This document shows positions 3,100 through 35,339 of a DNA stretch of 64,000 nt, one piece after another (the stretch's first letter is position 1; each line of letters opens with the position of its first letter). Both the position numbers and the translations under genes were made by a program. The notes under the pieces are model-generated. The model did no database searches. It saw nothing but the letters and a program-made list of their open reading frames with translations, and had not been told where the DNA came from. Origin of the DNA: Deltaproteobacteria bacterium (GTDB taxonomy: Bacteria > Myxococcota_A > Polyangia > Polyangiales > Houyiibacteriaceae); the NCBI GenBank assembly GCA_004283055.1, contig SHLP01000003.1, positions 41,587 through 105,586 on the forward strand. The letters are read 5' to 3'.

Positions 3100-3713
3100 G
3101 CGACACGGGCCCAGACCAGTGTCATGTTGTTGGCCGGCATGGGCACACTGTCCCGCAGCTCGAAGCCGGTGCGCTCCGCCAGCCCTCGGAGCTGATCGAT
3201 GTCCCGAATGCCCCAGCGCGGGTTGCGTGACCGAAGACTCTCGTCGAAGGCTGCGTTGCTAGGCGCACTGTGCTCGCCATGAAGCCGGTAAGGGCCGTAG
3301 GTCACCAGCGGCGAGCCGCTCTCTAGCAGCACGCTCGCGCCCTCGAAGAGGCGCTCGGTGGTCTCCCAGGGGGAGATGTGGATCATGTTGACGCAAAGCA
3401 AGGCGTCCGCCCTCGGGATCGGCCATCGAGGCCAGCAGACGTCGAGCTCGATCGGAGGCAAGAGGTTCTCGCGAGCGGAATCCTCGACCCAGGCGCGAAT
3501 GCTGCGCAGGGCATCGTCCGATGCATCGCTCGGCTGCCAGCTCAGGTGGGACAGATGCTCCGCGAAGAAGATGGCGTGCTGACCGGTGCCGCTAGCGATT
3601 TCGAGAACGAGCCCGTTCGGCGGCAGCACACGGCGAAGAACGTCGAGAATGGGTTGCCGATTGCGTTCGGCGGCTGGCGCAAAACCCTTTGCCATCGCGC
3701 TTGCATAGCCCAT
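3048..3713 (-). CDS. DUF938 SAM-dependent methyltransferase
   Basis: FAPAAERNRQPILDVL...VLEIASGTGQHAIFFAEHL...CVNMIHISPWETTERLFEGA matches the DUF938 pattern. Confidence 0.88.
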   Translation of the reverse strand: MGYASAMAKGFAPAAERNRQPILDVLRRVLPPNGLVLEIASGTGQHAIFFAEHLSHLSWQPSDASDDALRSIRAWVEDSARENLLPPIELDVCWPRWPIPRADALLCVNMIHISPWETTERLFEGASVLLESGSPLVTYGPYRLHGEHSAPSNAAFDESLRSRNPRWGIRDIDQLRGLAERTGFELRDSVPMPANNMTLVWARVAQPGSEGSEGFQKSTTK

Positions 3714-3757
3714 AACTTCCCGTCATCGAAGTCGACCGCGAGGACTGGAAGGGAACG

Positions 3758-5953
3758 CTGGGCTGGCGGCTCATCGTCACGCTGTGTCTTGCCACGCCTT
3801 GGCTGGCCCGCGCCTTGCTTCTGCACGAAAAGCGCCTTGCTCTGGCGCCGATCGACCTGCGCGGCGTCCTAGCCGACGCTTCGGTTGGTTTGCTGCTGGT
3901 CGGACTCATGGGGCTCCTGTTGGCAAAACGGCATTTGCTGGGCCGCTTCCTGGCGTTGATGCTGCTCGTCACGTTCGTCCTGCTGAGCTTTGCCATGTAC
4001 GAGTTCGTCTCGGTGTTTGATTCCCTGTACGCGCTCAGTCACGCCGGCTTCCTCGGCGATCCGACGTTTCTGGGCGGCTCGGTCCTGCACGCACGCCGCC
4101 CGCTGCTGCTCGCGCTGGTGACGGCTCTCGCGGTCCTCGGAGCCGCGTGGGCGCGCCCGCCCGTGTCGCTCTGGTGGCGATGGTGGGGCCTCGGTTTCGC
4201 GGTTTCGGTGTTCGGGCAAGTGCTCATCCCTACCTCGTACGCCCACGAAGAGTGGCGCGAACGTCACGCGATTCAGGCGAATCTCGGGTTCTTTCCGCCT
4301 TCCGCCCGGCCCCACCGCGTCGCCATCAGCGCCGAGGTTCGGGAGGTGTTTGACGGCGATCTCGGCGGCGAGCGCTGGGTGGGGCCGCTGTCCAAACGGC
4401 CGAATGTTCTACTCATCCTGATCGAAGCGGCGTCAGGCGCGCATCTCCCTTCGGTCGCGGCGGCCGAGGGGGTCCGGAGCGACATCGAGATGCCCAAGCT
4501 CGACGCGCTCGCTCGCCGGCATGTTCTCTTCACGCACGTCGTCTCGCATCAGCGCCAGACCAACCGCGGGGAGTACGGGATCCTCTGCGGGGACTACCCG
4601 AAGCTCCTCACCGATCAGTCCAAGATGAGCGAGCAGGTCTATGCAGCCGCGCGCCGCTGCCTTCCGGAGGCGCTGCGGGAGCAGGGATACGCCACTTCCT
4701 ACATTCAATCGGCGCCCCTCGGCTTCATGCTCAAGGATCAGTTCATGAAGAAGGCGGGCTTCGAGGAGCTCATCGGCGACCCATTTTTTTTGCAGAGCTA
4801 CGCGCGAACGGACTGGGGCGTCGACGACAAGGCCTTCTTCGAGCAGTCACTCGGACCCGTCCTCCGGCTGCATGCGGCGGAGCGACCGTTCTTCGCGACG
4901 CTCTTGACCGTAGGCACCCACCATCCGTTTACCTTTCCTGACGCGGCTCCAGCAGACGGAGGGCAGACCCGGCAAGCGCGGGCTTTCCGATGGGCCGACG
5001 ATGCGCTCGCGGATTTTCTCGATGAGCTCGGTCGGCGCGGCGTGCTGAACGACACGGTCGTCATCGTAACGTCGGACGAATCGACTGGGGTACGTCAGGC
5101 GGGTAGCGCCACGCATAGGCTGCTCTCGCAGAGTTGGTCCTTTGCGGTCGTCATGTTTCCCGCGCCAATCGTGAAACGCGTCGACACCGTATACGCGCAC
5201 GTCGATACCGCGCTGTCGGTCACTGATTTACTGGGCTTCGGCCGCGAGGCCCACGGTTTTCAAGGACGCAGCTGGTTTCGGGACTACGCATCGCCCCGTC
5301 CGGTGTTTTCCGGAAACACGTACGCGCGGAGGGTGCTGATGTTCGAGCCGTCGGGCAGCGCGGTGATTTGTAGCGAATCGTTTCAGAATTGCTCACGCTC
5401 GGTCCCGCTCGGAGGCTTGCCGTTCGGACCGAACCGCCAGAGCGAGCCTGCGCCGGAGCGCGCTCGTCAGCTGCTCACCGAGGTAGCCCGCCTCTCCCGC
5501 TCCGGCCGTGCGGACATGACACGGGCGGAGGGGCTCGACCTTCTCGTCGAGGAGCGCGTGACGGTGCGCGCGGCCGACGGAAAGAGACTGCTGATCGGCG
5601 GGCAGTACCTCCGCGTCCCTCGCGGCACGACCCTGCGGGTCGACTTGGATCTCGACGTCCTGGGCGAGCAATCGGCGGTCGAGCTCCACCAAGATGTCTT
5701 TCTCGGCGGCCGTTTGCAGCTCGAACGAGAAGACCGCGAGCTTCGAGCCGGAGAGCGCTGGCGCTTGAGCTACGAAATCGGCGTTCCTCGAGATTCTGGT
5801 CAACTCGTGGTCCAGCTCTACGCAACGACGGTCTCGGGCGACGTGGCGACGATTCGGTTCCACGATGCGAGGCTCACGATGACCGCTGGCAACGCGACTT
5901 CCGACGCTGTGCTCGTCATCGAGGACGCGGTGTCTCGGTCCGTTCCTCGCTGA
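3758..5953 (+). CDS. LtaS/sulfatase-fold membrane phosphotransferase-like protein
   Basis: N-terminal TM segments then RPNVLLILIEAASG...HQRQTNRGEYGILCGDYP...VVIVTSDE. Start uncertain (track TTG 3815; upstream CTG 3758). Confidence 0.8.
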   Translation: MGWRLIVTLCLATPWLARALLLHEKRLALAPIDLRGVLADASVGLLLVGLMGLLLAKRHLLGRFLALMLLVTFVLLSFAMYEFVSVFDSLYALSHAGFLGDPTFLGGSVLHARRPLLLALVTALAVLGAAWARPPVSLWWRWWGLGFAVSVFGQVLIPTSYAHEEWRERHAIQANLGFFPPSARPHRVAISAEVREVFDGDLGGERWVGPLSKRPNVLLILIEAASGAHLPSVAAAEGVRSDIEMPKLDALARRHVLFTHVVSHQRQTNRGEYGILCGDYPKLLTDQSKMSEQVYAAARRCLPEALREQGYATSYIQSAPLGFMLKDQFMKKAGFEELIGDPFFLQSYARTDWGVDDKAFFEQSLGPVLRLHAAERPFFATLLTVGTHHPFTFPDAAPADGGQTRQARAFRWADDALADFLDELGRRGVLNDTVVIVTSDESTGVRQAGSATHRLLSQSWSFAVVMFPAPIVKRVDTVYAHVDTALSVTDLLGFGREAHGFQGRSWFRDYASPRPVFSGNTYARRVLMFEPSGSAVICSESFQNCSRSVPLGGLPFGPNRQSEPAPERARQLLTEVARLSRSGRADMTRAEGLDLLVEERVTVRAADGKRLLIGGQYLRVPRGTTLRVDLDLDVLGEQSAVELHQDVFLGGRLQLEREDRELRAGERWRLSYEIGVPRDSGQLVVQLYATTVSGDVATIRFHDARLTMTAGNATSDAVLVIEDAVSRSVPR

Positions 5954-7940
5954 GCTGAAGCCGGCACTCAATCCGCCGCATCTGCGCGTGCTCCCAGCGC
6001 TGGAGCTCACGTCCGAGGGCTTCGCGGGCTTCCGGCCTGTCGCTTTGGAGCCCGGGGTCTTCGTCCGGATTGGCTTCGTCGTCGAAAAACAACGTCGTGC
6101 CCGCGCTGCGATGATGAATCAGCCGATCGCCATCGAGGCTGATCGCGCCCTTGGGCTCGTAGCCTTTGTTCGACACTCGAATGCTCTGGAGTCGCGCGCG
6201 AATCGTCGCATCGTCGAGTGCGGGGAGACGAAAGCTATCGAAAAGCTCACGGCCCCGCACAGGGAAGGCCTCGGAAAAGGTCGCACGGCCCCGCAGGTCA
6301 GGCTCGAGCGTGAAGAGGCTCCGTGCCGACGTGTCGGATGGCAGAGGTAGGCCCAAGAAGTGCAGAACGGTCGGCGCAACGTCGGCGAGGCTGGCGCCGA
6401 CGCGGGGCTCAGCGGGCGTGAACGCCGAGTGCCAAAGGACGAGCGGCACGTCGACCATCCAGCCGTTCAAGTACACGTGATGGCCCCAGTAGGACCTCTC
6501 CCCCAATGCCTCACCGTGGTCCGAAAAGAAGATCACGAGGCTGTCGTCGAGCCAGTGTTCGGCTTCCAAGTAGCTCATCAAGCGGCCGAGCTCCCGGTCG
6601 AAGTAAGCGACCTCGCTCAGGTATGCGTTCTTCCTTCCACGACCAAAAGGAAACGCAGCATGCGACTCGTAGGGGTCGTGTGGAGCATAGTAGTGGACCC
6701 AGGCCATCACCGAGGCGTCGTCCCGATGCGCTTGGCGAAGTTGGGCGATGAGCGCATCGGTTGCGTCCTCGTCGGTGGCTGCGAACTTGGTTTCGACACC
6801 GTGTGCGAGGAACTGCTGCACGATCGGAAGACGAAACCACTTCACATCCGGAAGCACGGCGATCTGCCGGTCGACGTGAGCACGGGAACGGGTGAAGATC
6901 GTCTCCGGCAAGGAAGGCGAGAGGTAGAGCTCTGCCGGGCTCAGGCCCGTAAACGCGCTGCCCACCGCAAACAGGGTGGCCGGGTACGTCGAGGTTGCGT
7001 TCCCCCAAGAGAGCCCTTTTTCAGACCATCTAGACAAGTGCGCAGTTACCGCGCTTCCATCGTGTTCTAGTCCCACGACGTCTTTTCGGAGCGCGTCGAC
7101 CGTGATGAGGATGACGTTCCGCCGGCCGTCGGCCAGGATGCCGATTGGAGAGGTCTCGACGACGGGCCTCGGCTCGGGGCAACGCGCGTCGTCGCTCCAA
7201 AGGCTCGAATGTGTGCTCACGCGAGGGAGCACGTACAGGGTCGCCAAGGCGCCGGCTCGGCTCTGGGCGATCACTTCGCGCTGACCGGTTGCCACGAGGG
7301 CAGGCGCAAAGCGCGATCCGACGCCAAGCAACGCACATGTCGCTGCGAGGCCGACGCCGATGAATCGACGGGGGGAATCGCGAACGATCAGGTAGAGCAT
7401 CGCGCTGCTCAGGAGCGCCGCGGGAAAGACGAGCTGAGCGATCGAGTAATCGTATGCACGGTAGCGCACGATAACGGCTGTAAGCAGGCTGACCGCGACG
7501 ATGCATAGTGCGATCCAGATCGCCTGCCACGGGCGCTTTCGAATCCGGATGCCGAGGATCAGCCAAAGCCAACCGGCTCCGGAGAGCAGGCCGAGCAGCA
7601 GCAACGTTGCCACTCGGAGCACGAAACGGTGGGGATGGCCGATCCATGCAGGTCCCGAAAGCAGGAAGTCGACGTGCTCCCAGCCGACGGCCATCGTCAG
7701 GATGGCGAGGATGAGAGTCCACGTCGCGACGATCGGTCGCGCCGCACCGGCCAAGCGTGACGCCGCGGCCAAGGCTAGGCTCGTCGGTATCGAGGCAAGC
7801 AGCGCGAGCCAACACAGCTGGGCGAGCAAACCGCTCGAGACGGTGCCCTGAGGGAGCAGGCCTGCCGTCAGAAGGAAGGCGGGGCCGAGGTAGGCCGCCG
7901 ACCAGAGTACGAGCACCGAGTCGAACGGCTTAGCGGCCAT
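5916..7940 (-). CDS. Sulfatase-fold membrane protein (alkaline phosphatase superfamily)
   Basis: Multiple TM helices then RNVILITVDALRKDVVG...HYYAPHDPYESH...VIFFSDHGEALGERSYWGHH. Confidence 0.88.
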   Translation of the reverse strand: MAAKPFDSVLVLWSAAYLGPAFLLTAGLLPQGTVSSGLLAQLCWLALLASIPTSLALAAASRLAGAARPIVATWTLILAILTMAVGWEHVDFLLSGPAWIGHPHRFVLRVATLLLLGLLSGAGWLWLILGIRIRKRPWQAIWIALCIVAVSLLTAVIVRYRAYDYSIAQLVFPAALLSSAMLYLIVRDSPRRFIGVGLAATCALLGVGSRFAPALVATGQREVIAQSRAGALATLYVLPRVSTHSSLWSDDARCPEPRPVVETSPIGILADGRRNVILITVDALRKDVVGLEHDGSAVTAHLSRWSEKGLSWGNATSTYPATLFAVGSAFTGLSPAELYLSPSLPETIFTRSRAHVDRQIAVLPDVKWFRLPIVQQFLAHGVETKFAATDEDATDALIAQLRQAHRDDASVMAWVHYYAPHDPYESHAAFPFGRGRKNAYLSEVAYFDRELGRLMSYLEAEHWLDDSLVIFFSDHGEALGERSYWGHHVYLNGWMVDVPLVLWHSAFTPAEPRVGASLADVAPTVLHFLGLPLPSDTSARSLFTLEPDLRGRATFSEAFPVRGRELFDSFRLPALDDATIRARLQSIRVSNKGYEPKGAISLDGDRLIHHRSAGTTLFFDDEANPDEDPGLQSDRPEAREALGRELQRWEHAQMRRIECRLQLSEERTETPRPR

Positions 7941-28708: not shown

Positions 28709-30019
28709 TTGCGGGCGTCTGGGTCGAGCCGAGGGTTCCTGGACTTGTGGTCCGGGGTCGGTCTGGTCGTCGCGAACATGGTCGGCGCAGGCGTATTTCT
28801 GAGCGCTGGGTTCATGTCGCAGGAGCTGAGCGCTGGATGGATTCTCGCCGCCTGGGGCATCGGCGGCCTCCTGGCGATGGCGGGGGCCCGCACCTACGCC
28901 GAGGCGGCCTTGATGATTCCGCGCTCGGGCGGTGAGTACCGCTATCTGTCCGAGCTTCTGAGCCCCGCGGTCGGTTATCTCGCAGGCTGGGCTTCGCTCC
29001 TCGTGGGTTTCTCGGCGCCGATGGCGATCAGCACGTTTGCGGCCGCAGCATTCGCTTTCGCGGTCTTCGGACTACCCAACCCGCGCCTGGGCGCCGCGGT
29101 CCTCATCGTGCTTCTGACCCTATTTCACGCAGCTGGCCTTGGGCTTTCGAAGTGGACGCAGAACGGCCTGGTGATTCTCAAGGGGCTCTTGATTCTCGCC
29201 TTCGTGACGCTGGGGCTGTGCTTGGGCGAAACGCAGTGGCCCAATTGGGCGCCGCCCAACGAGCCGCCGAGCCTTGCGCTATCGTTCGCGAGCAGCCTCT
29301 TCTTCGTCGCGTACGCCTTCTCCGGCTGGAATGCGGCAGCCTACGCCGCCGAGGAGTTCCGTTCGCCGCGCCGTGACGTTCCGCGGGCGATGTTGACCGG
29401 ATGCGCGATCGTTGCGGTTGCGTACGTCCTGGTAAACTGGATTCTCGTGGCGAACCTGAGCCCGGAGCGCGCGCAGGTCGTCTTCGAGTACGAAGAGGCA
29501 AAGATCACGCTCGGACACGTCGTCGCCCAGGATCTCCTCGGCGACTTAGGGGCCCGCGCCATGTCCTTGGGCATCGCGGCGATCATGGTTTCGAGCAGTA
29601 GCGCAATGCTCTTGGTGGGTCCGCGTGTCTACGCAGAAATGGCTCGGGACGGGTTTCTGCCCCCGTTTCTTCGAGGTGAACCCGGGTCGCCACCGCGCGC
29701 CGCCGTGGCTCTTCAGGGCGCGATTGCGATTGCGCTCTTGTACATGCACAGCGTCGGGGAGCTCCTGAGCAATGTGGCGGGCATCCTCGTGTTCTTTTCC
29801 GCGCTGGTTGCCGTTGGCCTGCTCACGGTTCGTTGGCGCCGGCCCGATCTCCAGACGCCACGCGCCGCGGCGCTCTTTGCAGCCGCGGTCTACGCAGCTT
29901 CATCGGTTTGGATGCTCTACAGCGCCTTCAAGGCGCAAACGGGGCTGCTTCCATGGATTGCGCTGGCGATGGGAGCGGCCCTCGTCGCCTACGCGCTGAG
30001 CGCGAGGGCGCCTAGCTGA
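28709..30019 (+). CDS. APC family amino acid permease
   Basis: [73 protein letters not shown] start. Confidence 0.9.
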
Positions 30020-32294
30020 CGATCGCGTCCAGGGCCGACGCGTGCGCTTCGGCGAGCTCTTCCACCGGCACCTCGCAGGCGCCGTCAATCGCGACGGTCT
30101 GGCCCGTGACCGTTCCAATCTTCTCGAATGGCACTCCGTGTCGTGCGCAGATGTCACCGACCTGACCGGCATGGCTCGGGGAGAGACTGACGAGGATCCG
30201 CGTTGGTTCTTCGCTGAAGAGCAGGGCGTGCGCGGGCGCGTCCTCACTCGAGGGCAGGCTCACCTGTGCGCCGTGTCCGTACGCGATGCACGACTCGGCC
30301 AGCGCGACCGCGAAGCCGCCGTCGCTGATGTCGTGAGCGCTTCGCAGAAGCTTCTTCTTTGCAAGCGCGAGCATCGCGTGCTGGAGCTCCGCTTCCGCGT
30401 CGAGGTCGATCCCGACGGGCGCGCCCGTTACCGAGCCGCTGCGCTGCGCGAGCCACTCGGAGCCGCCGAGCACTCCGCGGGAAGGGCGCCCTAGGTGCGC
30501 AATGACATCGCCTTCGGACAGAAATCCAAGTCCAATGCGATGCTCGGGGTCTTCGAGTTGCCCCACGACGGCGACCGTCGGCGTTGGCAAGATGGCCTTG
30601 CCATCGGTCTCGTTGTAGAGGCTGACATTGCCTGAGACGACAGGCGCGCCCAGGGCGCTACACGCCGCAGCCAAACCGTCGATTGCCTGTGAAAAGCGCC
30701 ACATCTGCTCGGGCACTTCGGGGTTACCGAAGTTCAGGCAGTCGGTGAGGCCAAGTGGCTTCGCACCAACGCAGACGATGTTGCGCGTGCACTCGGCGAC
30801 CGCCATTGCGGCGCCGGCGTAGGGATCGAGCTCTACGTGTCGGCCGTTGCAGTCGACGGAGATGGCGAGGAACTTCTCGCGTGACCCACCGGCATCTTCG
30901 CAGAACGCGCGAATCACCGCAGCGTCCCCGTCCCCGGGACGAATCACCGTTCCGTTTCCGACGATGTGATCGTACTGCCGCCAGATCCAAGAACGGCTTC
31001 CGATGTTGGGCGAGCCGATCAGGCGCACGAGCTCGGCGCCCAGGTCTTCAGGACCGTCTCCGGTCATCGTGAAGAGCCTGGCCTCATCCGAACGCCCCCG
31101 CTGGGGGCGATCGTACTTGGGTGCTGCGTTGGTGAGCAGGTCGACCGGAAGATCGACGACGACCACCGGGTCCGGCTCACCCGTTCCGTCGAACGGGTCG
31201 TAGCCGGGGGTAGCTTTGCAGACGAAGCGCCCGGTATCCGTCACGCGGCCGACGATCGACGCGTCGAGGTCCCACTTGGCACAGATATCGAACACTTCTT
31301 GCTCGCGCCCCGCCTTGGCGACCATCAGCATGCGTTCTTGCGACTCGCTCAGCAGCATTTCGTAGGGGCTCAATGCCTTGGTCCGGCGGGGAATCGCGTC
31401 GAGATCGAGCTCGATGCCATTGCCCGCGCGGTCCGCCATTTCGACCGACGACGAGGTCAGCCCCGCTGCGCCCATGTCCTGTACGCCAGACAGGCAATCG
31501 GTGGCGAAGATCTCCAGGCAGGCTTCGAGCAGCAGCTTCTCCATGAACGGGTCGCCCACCTGCACCGTCGGGAGCTTGCTGTCGGTCTCCTCGCCGAACT
31601 CCGCGCTCGCCATGGTGGCGCCGTGGATTCCGTCTCTGCCTGTCTTGGCGCCGACATAGAGGATCGGGTTGCCGATGCCTTCTGCAACTCCGAAGAAGAG
31701 GTCGTCGGTCTTGGCTATTCCCACGGTGAACGCGTTGACCAGGATGTTGCCGTCATAGCTCGCGTCGAACTGGACTTCGCCGCCGACGGTCGGGACGCCG
31801 ATGCAATTGCCGTAGCCGCCGATGCCTGCGACCACGCCCTTGAGGAGCTGAGGAGTCCTCGGGTGATCGGGGCGACCAAACCGGAGTGAGTTCAACGACG
31901 CGACCGGACGCGCGCCCATCGTGAAGACGTCGCGTAGGATGCCGCCCACGCCGGTTGCCGCGCCCTGGTAGGGTTCGATATACGATGGGTGGTTGTGCGA
32001 CTCCATCTTGAACACCGCGCAGAAGCCATCGCCGATATCGACGGCCCCAGCGTTCTCACCGGGCCCCTGAACGACCTGCGGCCCTGTGGTCGGCAGGCGA
32101 GCGAGGTGAACCCGTGAGGACTTGTACGAGCAGTGCTCGGACCACATCACGCTGATGACCCCGAGCTCTGCGTAGCTGGGCGCGCGCTCGAGGGTGCTGA
32201 GGACGCGCTTCCACTCCTCCGCCGCTAGACCAAACTCGCGTGCGATTTCGGGAGAGCTATCCGGCTCTCCGGGAAAGTTGGCTGGTGTGCTCAT
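30012..32294 (-). CDS. purL: Phosphoribosylformylglycinamidine synthase subunit PurL
   Basis: [67 protein letters not shown]. Confidence 0.97.
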
Positions 32295-32986
32295 TCGAAC
32301 CCCAAATGACGCCGAAGCGATGTGAAGAGCGCGAACCCGTCGTCGTTGCCCAGGATGGTTTCGCTCGCACGTTCCGGGTGCGGCATCATGCCGAGCACGT
32401 TCTTCTCACGGTTGTAGAGACCGGCGATGTCTCCCACCGAGCCGTTCGGATTTGCATCGCTGCCCTCGGGCTCGCCGCCGCCTCGCGTGCAGTAGCGAAA
32501 CGCGATCTGCCCGTGGCGTTCGAGGTCGGCAAGACCATCCTCGGTGGTGTGGTACCGGCCGTCTGCATGCGCAATGGGGAGGCGGAGAACCTTGCCTCGT
32601 CCCATGTCGGTGAACGGACCTTCGTTTTCGACTCTGAGATGGATGTCGCGGCACTCGAAGCGAAGATGAGCATTCCTGGTGAGTGCACCGGGTAGGAGCC
32701 CCATCTCCGTCAGAATCTGAAACCCGTTGCAGATACCGAGCACCGGGCCGCCTCGGCCGGCGAACTCGCGGACGGAGTGGTCGATCGGACTGAAGCCCGC
32801 GATCGCGCCGGCGCGAAGGTAGTCACCGTACGAAAAACCGCCGGGAATCACGACGGCGTCCGCGTCGCCGAGGCTCGTCCCTTTGTGGAAGGCGTACCAG
32901 GCGTCTGCGCCCAAGACGTCGCGGACCGCGTGAAGGGCGTCCCAGTCGGCGTTCGAGCCTGGAAATTGTAAAACAGCGACTCTCAT
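32291..32986 (-). CDS. purQ: Phosphoribosylformylglycinamidine synthase subunit PurQ
   Basis: [66 protein letters not shown]. Overlaps purL by 4 bp. Confidence 0.97.
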
Positions 32987-33056: not shown

Positions 33057-33683
33057 CTATCGAATCCGCTCGAAATAGCCGTGGCTGATCTCGGGTTCGA
33101 GACCTGCCACCGGGGTCAAGCGAAAGACGATCGTGCCTCTGCAGCTCGACGCGTCAACAACCCCGTAGGCACGGCTGTCCTGGCCCATGTAGCCGCGGTA
33201 GTCACCGAGAAGGTAGAGCCTCCCCGCGGGGACCTCCGCTTTGTCGACGTGGTGCCGACGGTTTTCGCCGAGGAAGATCTGGTGGTTGCCGGTGCCGAGG
33301 TACTCGTCGCCCCAGGTCACCTGGACCGTCCGGTCGGTGTCCTCGTTGTAGAACGAGCCGCTTCCGCCTCCGTTGTATTCGACCGGCTTGCCGTCGATGA
33401 AAAGCTCGGTCCCAAACGAATGGATCGTCATCCCTTCGGTTGCCGCGACGCGGGCAACGACCCAGCCGACCTCGGTAGGATGTTGGCAAACCGCGATCGA
33501 TCCCAGGGTGGGGGCCGCTTTTTTGCGGATCAGTACACGCTCTCCGCGAAGCAAAGTAGGCGCCATCCCGTTGTGTCCCACCTCCGCCATGTCGAACAGG
33601 AATACCTTGAGGGCCAGGGCGATGACGATCAGGGCCGCGCCCACCCAGGAAAGGCATCCAAGCCCGCTGCGAATCGCCCCCAT
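33057..33683 (-). CDS. Signal peptidase I fold (S26) protein lacking the Ser/Lys catalytic dyad
   Basis: N-terminal TM; VGHNGMAPTLLRGERVLIRKK; VVARVAATEGMTI; GDYRGYMGQDSRAYGVVDASSCRGTIVFRL. Confidence 0.85.
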   Translation of the reverse strand: MGAIRSGLGCLSWVGAALIVIALALKVFLFDMAEVGHNGMAPTLLRGERVLIRKKAAPTLGSIAVCQHPTEVGWVVARVAATEGMTIHSFGTELFIDGKPVEYNGGGSGSFYNEDTDRTVQVTWGDEYLGTGNHQIFLGENRRHHVDKAEVPAGRLYLLGDYRGYMGQDSRAYGVVDASSCRGTIVFRLTPVAGLEPEISHGYFERIR

Positions 33684-33691
33684 CCCCCTCG

Positions 33692-34330
33692 CTATTCGCC
33701 GCTTGCGAGGTACTTGTCAAGCTCGCGAAGGAAGGGCTGAATGGTCTCGGCGGGCCGAGCCGCGGCATAGACGGCACGCCGGATCGCGACACCGGTCGCG
33801 CCGGCCCGAAGCAACGGCCGAAGATCCTCTGGACGCACGCCCCCCAACGCATATGTCGGTAGCTCGACACCGGCGATCGCAGCCCGAAAACCGTGAAGCC
33901 CAAGGGGTGGACCCTTGCCCGGGACGCCGAATACCGGGCTCAAGAACGCATAGCTCGCAAGCGCGCGCTCAGCGGCCTCGAGCCCGCTGCGATCGTGGCG
34001 AGAGACGCCCAGCACACTGAAAGCAGACCAATGGCTTCGAATCTCCATGGGCGAAAGGCCAAGCTCGGGCAGGTGCACGCCGTCCGCGTGTACGACGTCG
34101 GCGAGATCGGCCCGTCGGTTCACCGTCAGCGCGCTGCCGACGTCGCGCGTGATGGCGCGCAGCTCGTGTCCCCATTGCACGATCTGGCGATCAGACGCCC
34201 TTTTCGCACGGAGCTGCACGCCAATCACCTCCGGTGGGCACCCTTCGAGGGCCTTTCGAACTGGAGCCACGGGGCCGTCCGCGTGATTCGGGTCTGTGAT
34301 GATCCAGATCCGCGGAAGGCCGTTGTTCAT
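33692..34330 (-). CDS. thiE: Thiamine phosphate synthase
   Basis: VIGVQLRAKRASDRQI; SALTVNRRADLADVVHADGVHLPE; ALGGVRPEDLRPLLRAGATGVAIRRAVY. Confidence 0.9.
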   Translation of the reverse strand: MNNGLPRIWIITDPNHADGPVAPVRKALEGCPPEVIGVQLRAKRASDRQIVQWGHELRAITRDVGSALTVNRRADLADVVHADGVHLPELGLSPMEIRSHWSAFSVLGVSRHDRSGLEAAERALASYAFLSPVFGVPGKGPPLGLHGFRAAIAGVELPTYALGGVRPEDLRPLLRAGATGVAIRRAVYAAARPAETIQPFLRELDKYLASGE

Positions 34331-34340
34331 CGCGATCGGC

Positions 34341-35138
34341 TCAGGTTCGGCCGTCTTGATCGGAGCCGATGACGCCTTCGAGCGGGCTCGACGCCGTCGC
34401 GTAGAGCTTGCGTGGAATACGGCCTGCGAGGAACGCGTCCCGGCCGGCCTCGACGGCTGCTCTCATCGCTCGAGCCATTCGAACGGGGTCCTTGGCGCCG
34501 GCGATCGCCGTGTTCATCAGCACTCCGTCGATGCCGAGCTCCATCGCGATTGCAGCGTCCGACGCGGTGCCGACGCCGGCGTCGACAATGACGGGCACCG
34601 TCGCGTGCTTCACGATGATCTCGATGTTGAAAGGATTGCGAACGCCGAGCCCGCTGCCGATGGGCGCGGCCAACGGCATGACTGCAGCACAGCCCAGCTC
34701 CTGGAGGCGAAGCGCCGCGATCGGATCGTCATTGAAGTAGGGAAGAACGGTGAACCCGTCGTCTACCAAGGCCTTGGCGGCTTGCAGTGTTGCAGGCACA
34801 TCGGGGAAGAGCGTCTTTTCGTCGCCGATGACCTCGAGCTTGATCAGCGGGGTGTCCAGAAGCTCCCTCGCCAGCCGAGCGGTTCGCACCGCGTCTTCCG
34901 CGGTGTAGCAACCCGCTGTGTTGGGCAAGAGCGTGTAGTTGCCCTCGCGCAGCACCGTCATGATCGAGTCCGCCCCGGTGGCTTTCAAATCCACCCTGCG
35001 CACGGCGACGGTCACGACTTCGCAGCCGGAGGCGTCCAATGCCCTTTTTGCGATATCGAGGCTCGGGTACTTCCCGGTACCCGTGAACAGGCGCGATCGA
35101 AACTCGAACTGGCCGATCTTCAGAGTGTCTTCGGACAC
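34341..35138 (-). CDS. thiG: Thiazole synthase
   Basis: [80 protein letters not shown]. Confidence 0.97.
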
Positions 35139-35339
35139 CTAGCCGCCTCCTACGAACTGGACCACCTCGACCCGGTCACCGTCGCTGAGGCGGGTGCTCT
35201 CATGGAGGGCGCGCGGCACGACTTCTTCGTTACGCTCGACGGCGACCAAGGTGTCCTCGAGCCCGAGGGAGGAAAGCAGCTGCTTCACCGTGGTGGTCGG
35301 CTCGACCTGCCGTTGTTCACCGTTGACCATGAGACGCAT
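35139..35339 (-). CDS. thiS: Sulfur carrier protein ThiS
   Basis: 66 aa [27 protein letters not shown]...[11 protein letters not shown]-terminal GG; adjacent to thiG. Confidence 0.93.

Follow-up and report, generated by a model that had tools for sequence, protein, structure and literature searches.

A predicted non-catalytic signal peptidase I homologue with a conserved cysteine pair, encoded beside thiamine genes in Myxococcota

What does a signal peptidase (SPase) do once the residues for cutting are gone? The question is raised by a gene at positions 33057 to 33683 of a 64,000-nucleotide stretch of a Deltaproteobacteria bacterium (assembly GCA_004283055.1, contig SHLP01000003.1, positions 41,587 to 105,586), hereafter called the window, where it stands directly behind genes for thiamine synthesis. 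S26A peptidases depend on a Ser/Lys dyad, and an earlier note, made from the letters of the window alone, had proposed that both dyad residues are replaced in this gene and that it encodes a pseudo-peptidase (pseudo-SPase) rather than being a decaying gene. By sequence and predicted structure, the product is an SPase I (S26) homologue with the type I signal peptidase fold, and it fits the description of an inactive SPase I homologue (PMC4049620), an SPase fold in which neither dyad residue is kept. The protein matched PF10502 at 65.7 bits (cut-off 22.9, E 6.5e-18) over profile positions 10-167 of 168, and TIGR02227 at 74.6 bits (cut-off 47). An AlphaFold model, built from an alignment of 42 orthologues, had a mean predicted local distance difference test score (pLDDT) of 91.3 and a predicted template modelling score (pTM) of 0.85, and DSSP assigned to it a single N-terminal helix (residues 3-28) followed by beta strands. 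A Foldseek search of the PDB with this model gave E. coli LepB as the top match (E 2e-9, TM-score up to 0.70, probability 1.00) and also returned the inactive SipA of Streptococcus pyogenes (4n31, E 1e-5); a profile search of PDB sequences returned SpsB, EF3073, SipA and LepB. The features of the gene that bear on its activity are as follows.

33057..33683, (-) strand: pseudo-signal-peptidase I open reading frame, 208 aa, ATG start, assigned from the PF10502 and TIGR02227 matches, the AlphaFold model and Foldseek.
33600..33677, (-) strand: probable N-terminal membrane anchor helix, residues 3-28, from DSSP of the model and a hydrophobic sequence, with the topology taken from the family.
33552..33575, (-) strand: box B, HNGMAPTL, residues 37-44, with Gly39 in the place of the nucleophile Ser and His37 at the LepB Ser88 position.
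33453..33455, (-) strand: Ala77 codon, replacing the general-base Lys (LepB Lys145 position).
33183..33185, (-) strand: Gly167 codon, replacing the accessory Ser (LepB Ser278 position), just before DSR.
33162..33206, (-) strand: box E, GDYRGYMGQDSRAYG, residues 160-174, the GDxR...DSRxxG structural motif, intact.

Both substitutions described at the outset were borne out: Gly39 (codon 33567-33569) occupies the Ser90 position of LepB, and box D, which reads WVVARV, has Ala77 where Lys precedes R-V. Box E was likewise correctly described as intact. A third loss had been overlooked, and in this respect the observation was understated, as the accessory Ser that is Gly167 here is present in 29/29 Lys-bearing Myxococcota homologues. 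With the nucleophile Ser, the general-base Lys and the accessory Ser each replaced, hydrolysis should not be possible. In comparison with E. coli LepB, the pseudo-SPase has the same fold, the same layout of boxes B-E, a Met at the Met91 position and the DSR box, but differs at all three of the Ser90, Lys145 and Ser278 positions, has one predicted N-terminal helix where LepB has two, and carries an added Cys pair and Arg188. The positions that line the LepB cleft are hydrophobic in the alignment (Val35 in 35/42 orthologues, Met40 in 42/42, Val50 in 37/42 and Val75 in 41/42).

The 42 orthologues come from 18 of the 19 genomes of the genus and from another 24 genomes in the family and order, and they show comparable substitutions. 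At the Lys position 35 have Gly, 7 have Ala and none has Lys, and the Ser position is Gly in 35, Ala in 5 and Ser in 2; the orthologues of the 17 other genus genomes, two of them on single-contig chromosomes, also lack both dyad residues. No Lys was conserved at 80% or above at any position in the 42 orthologues, which indicates that the Lys general base has not been relocated, and a compensating Lys or Ser nearby was rejected as a candidate, none being conserved. Nine residues are invariant (M40, P42, G47, C66, P69, D169, S170, R171 and C181). The ratio of nonsynonymous to synonymous substitution rates (dN/dS) within the genus had a median of 0.22 over 153 pairs, similar to that of thiE (0.25) and higher than those of thiG (0.05) and purQ (0.09). 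Synonymous sites are partly saturated in distant genus pairs, and the closest pairs, at 0.08-0.15, are therefore the better guide. These values show that the pseudo-SPase is under purifying selection as an intact protein.

A profile search over 379 Myxococcota genomes recovered a second tier of homologues, at about 85-133 bits, in groups f12, f7 and f17, the last belonging to another order of the class. Two cysteines of the window protein, Cys66 and Cys181, occurred together in 77/123 collected S26 sequences, and neither occurred singly in any; Lys was present in 0/77 of the Cys-pair sequences and the Cys pair in 0/29 of the Lys-bearing enzymes. In a tree computed with the four trait columns removed, the Cys-pair group formed one side of a branch with bootstrap 91 and a Shimodaira-Hasegawa-like approximate likelihood ratio test (SH-aLRT) value of 86, and it did so in 90% of bootstrap trees (91 in a quick tree), a result that supports a single origin for the clade. 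Loss of both dyad residues, as noted for the window gene, does not extend to the clade as a whole. Because 33/77 Cys-pair sequences still show Ser at the aligned nucleophile column, a count that is less certain for f12, where there is an insertion just before this column, it is the Lys loss that marks the whole clade, and the Ser loss is later or repeated. The residues that characterise the clade are:

33486..33488, (-) strand: Cys66, clade-specific, 77/77.
33141..33143, (-) strand: Cys181, clade-specific, 77/77, a possible disulfide partner of Cys66.
33120..33122, (-) strand: Arg188, clade-enriched, 38/42 and 32/35, not in the residue list of the 29 canonical enzymes.

S26 paralogues without Lys were also seen outside the Cys-pair clade (L118, L119, L154, L155, L156, L159, L161, L163, L164, L166 and L167). 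In these the Lys is replaced mostly by Arg and in some by Gly or Ala, and they form at least three well-supported groups; to judge from these sequences, Myxococcota seem to have evolved or diversified pseudo-signal-peptidases on several occasions.

Outside the genus of the window, the gene directly downstream of the pseudo-SPase encodes a YbjN-like protein of about 180 aa in 12/24 genomes, and the same pair was found in 2/3 f17 loci, there without thi genes. The AlphaFold model of this neighbour (pLDDT 87.7) matched 2plg in Foldseek (E 4.6e-4), together with ExsC, VecA and SicP, which are class I chaperones of type III secretion systems (T3SS), and E. coli YbjN; by sequence it was just over the cut-off for PF10722 (YbjN), with weak matches to CesT and TY-Chap1. 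Since by eye its N-terminus reads as a signal sequence, and it has two invariant Cys, it is probably exported, unlike the cytoplasmic YbjN. YbjN proteins are thought to work via protein-protein interaction (PMC5398634). In most f1 relatives outside the genus, a second recurrent neighbour stands between thiG and thiE, a small exported protein resembling tetratricopeptide repeat (TPR) proteins. Examples of the two are:

L054 4262-4804 (+), L069 4102-4683 (+), L100 3893-4402 (-): neighbour with the YbjN/T3SS-chaperone fold.
L066 5219-5470 (-), L067 2762-3067 (+), L021 4889-5161 (+): TPR-like protein, motif PFQCASDPDPxRRxEDT.

The neighbours in f12 were an FHA/zinc-ribbon protein, a trypsin-like exported protease and proB; at L105 the pseudo-SPase lies between the trypsin-like exported protease and the FHA/double-zinc-ribbon protein (3284-4147 (+) and 4903-6036 (+)).

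The closest known parallel is SipA (LepA) of S. pyogenes (4N31/4K8W). SipA has Asp48 and Gly85 in place of Ser and Lys, conserves the cleft, has no peptidase activity, and is nevertheless essential for pilus polymerisation; some of its homologues retain the dyad, and SPase-like proteins without it are known in Gram-positives (PMC4049620). Both proteins have the S26 fold, a membrane anchor (predicted here) and replacements of both dyad residues, the change of Lys to Gly in SipA being that of most Cys-pair clade members, and both stand in operons with exported proteins. They differ in that identity in the structural match is 21%, the nucleophile site is Asp in SipA and Gly here, and SipA belongs to a Gram-positive pilus operon with a sortase, whereas the genes found around the pseudo-SPase are of thi, pur, YbjN-like, TPR-like, FHA and trypsin-like types. 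A Cys pair at these sites goes unmentioned for SipA in the available text of PMC4049620. Among other inactive Gram-positive homologues, S. aureus SpsA is an SPase-like protein without the dyad. No thiE- or YbjN-like neighbour is known for an inactive homologue of this type.

By analogy with SipA, we give roughly even odds to the pseudo-SPase being a peptide-binding adaptor or holdase that faces the periplasm and serves exported polypeptides without catalysis. One N-terminal membrane helix would anchor the S26 domain facing the periplasm, where a Cys66-Cys181 disulfide would stabilise it, and the shallow hydrophobic peptide-binding cleft is probably retained. At the outer face of the inner membrane, this cleft may take up particular exported clients by their c-region or by an extended segment, and the bound clients would be delivered or protected without cleavage. 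Such a role has also been put forward for SipA. Outside the genus, the YbjN/T3SS-chaperone-fold protein and the small TPR-like protein are candidate clients or co-chaperones. The suggestion of the earlier note, a chaperone or regulator binding signal peptides, gains weight from the exported chaperone-fold protein that recurs next to the gene but remains a proposal. A more specific form is offered tentatively, that the old Gram-negative Cys-pair clade and the exported YbjN-fold (and TPR-like) protein make up a periplasmic peptide-handling module embedded in the thiamine operon, which would be a holdase system with the disarmed SPase as its membrane-bound peptide receptor.

Several points weigh against an adaptor or holdase. 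Even for SipA, pull-downs failed to show peptide binding to clients (PMC4049620). The YbjN-like gene is absent from all 19 genomes of the genus, which has lost it or never had it; the YbjN-like protein is therefore not an obligatory partner, and such a partner in the genome of the window was rejected. Conversely, four f5/f9 genomes have the YbjN-like gene with no pseudo-SPase detected.

The first alternative, which we think unlikely, is that the pseudo-SPase is a regulator or decoy of the housekeeping LepB, competing for or sequestering signal peptides or forming mixed complexes, and thus adjusting how some preproteins are processed, without a client of its own. A separate canonical lepB is present in the genome of the window (L001 1441-2166, GPSMEPTL / VKRV), and a LepB with these motifs was also found in nearly all pseudo-SPase genomes whose second S26 gene was read; the exception was G031, in which the second match read (L173) is itself non-canonical. 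A decoy would agree with the fold and probable cleft that the two proteins share in one cell, and with the general logic of pseudoenzymes. However, the recurrent linkage to specific exported proteins suggests dedicated clients, and no second S26 gene was among the neighbours identified.

Somewhat more doubtful is an envelope function connected with thiamine or its precursors, such as transport, sensing or a ThiE-coupled step. The start of the pseudo-SPase lies 8 bp past the stop codon of thiE, in the order thiS-thiG-thiE-pseudo-SPase, as the earlier note had it, with purQ and purL coming next in the same direction:

35139..35339, (-) strand: thiS, 66 aa, GG C-terminus, from the reading frame and equally placed homologues in other loci.
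34341..35138, (-) strand: thiG (PF05690, E 1e-111).
33692..34330, (-) strand: thiE, thiamine phosphate synthase, directly upstream of the pseudo-SPase (PF02581, E 6.6e-32).
32291..32986, (-) strand: purQ, downstream, in the orientation of the pseudo-SPase, start assumed (PF13507, E 2.6e-43).
30012..32294, (-) strand: purL, named from sequence, with the gene order conserved in the genus.

This order holds in the genus wherever the contig continues, and each of the 18 genus members with a pseudo-SPase gene has thiE immediately before it, on the same strand. The thiamine setting is also common in the order, with thiE in the same place in 15 of the 24 other genomes of the first tier, from several families, and it is better kept than the rest of the window neighbours (purQ is near the pseudo-SPase in 2/24). 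It is not universal: one of the 24 (G029) has its thi genes next to the pseudo-SPase but in divergent orientation, in eight no thi gene was found next to the pseudo-SPase, and in the second tier a thi gene was found in 0/20 neighbourhoods examined, and tier-2 homologues were thus rejected as thi-linked. No TPP (thiamine pyrophosphate) riboswitch was found with Rfam at the gathering threshold in the window or in ten related loci, nor did the operon give any Rfam match. The same search placed a TPP riboswitch upstream of thiC in the genome of the window (L192 1156-1246 (+)), and riboswitch control of the thiSGE/pseudo-SPase operon was rejected. ThiSGE are, moreover, cytoplasmic, whereas the pseudo-SPase is predicted to face the periplasm. 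Although conserved far outside the genus, the link to thiE is no defining feature of the family, and unless genetics says otherwise we take it to reflect co-transcription or the inheritance of an operon. A search of open-licence papers found no description of the family or of a connection with thiamine.

It is improbable that the protein still works as a hydrolase, or as some other enzyme, through catalytic residues at new sites, for example around His37, Asn/Asp38 or Cys66. In favour of this, Cys66 is invariant, but His37 and Asn38 vary across the clade, with no conservation in the second tier, and this makes the case weak; there is also no conserved Lys. In SipA, mutation of Asp48, at the nucleophile site, and of a nearby Lys had no effect (PMC4049620). 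A decaying pseudogene or sequencing error, to which the loss of both dyad residues might point, can be dismissed given 42 intact orthologues with nine invariant residues, an omega of about 0.22, and the same losses in single-contig chromosomes.

Pseudo-signal-peptidases are already a known kind. The apparent novelty lies in a large clade of Gram-negatives that carries a Cys-pair signature, in the association of this clade with an exported protein of chaperone fold, and in its place inside a thiamine operon. Gram-positive pilus operons have been the main source of known inactive signal peptidases, and a family kept throughout an order of Gram-negative relatives of the myxobacteria offers a second, independent system for asking what a signal peptidase does without cutting. 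The family can be recognised by the missing Lys, the Cys pair and Arg188; exported proteins recur beside it, and its cells also have a LepB of the active type. Because the TIGR02227 equivalog cut-off is passed, such proteins are liable to be mis-annotated as signal peptidase I. On the far side of the thi genes, and divergent from thiS, the window also encodes a stand-alone N6/N4 DNA methyltransferase (PF01555; 35360-36295 (+)), which is kept in the genus.
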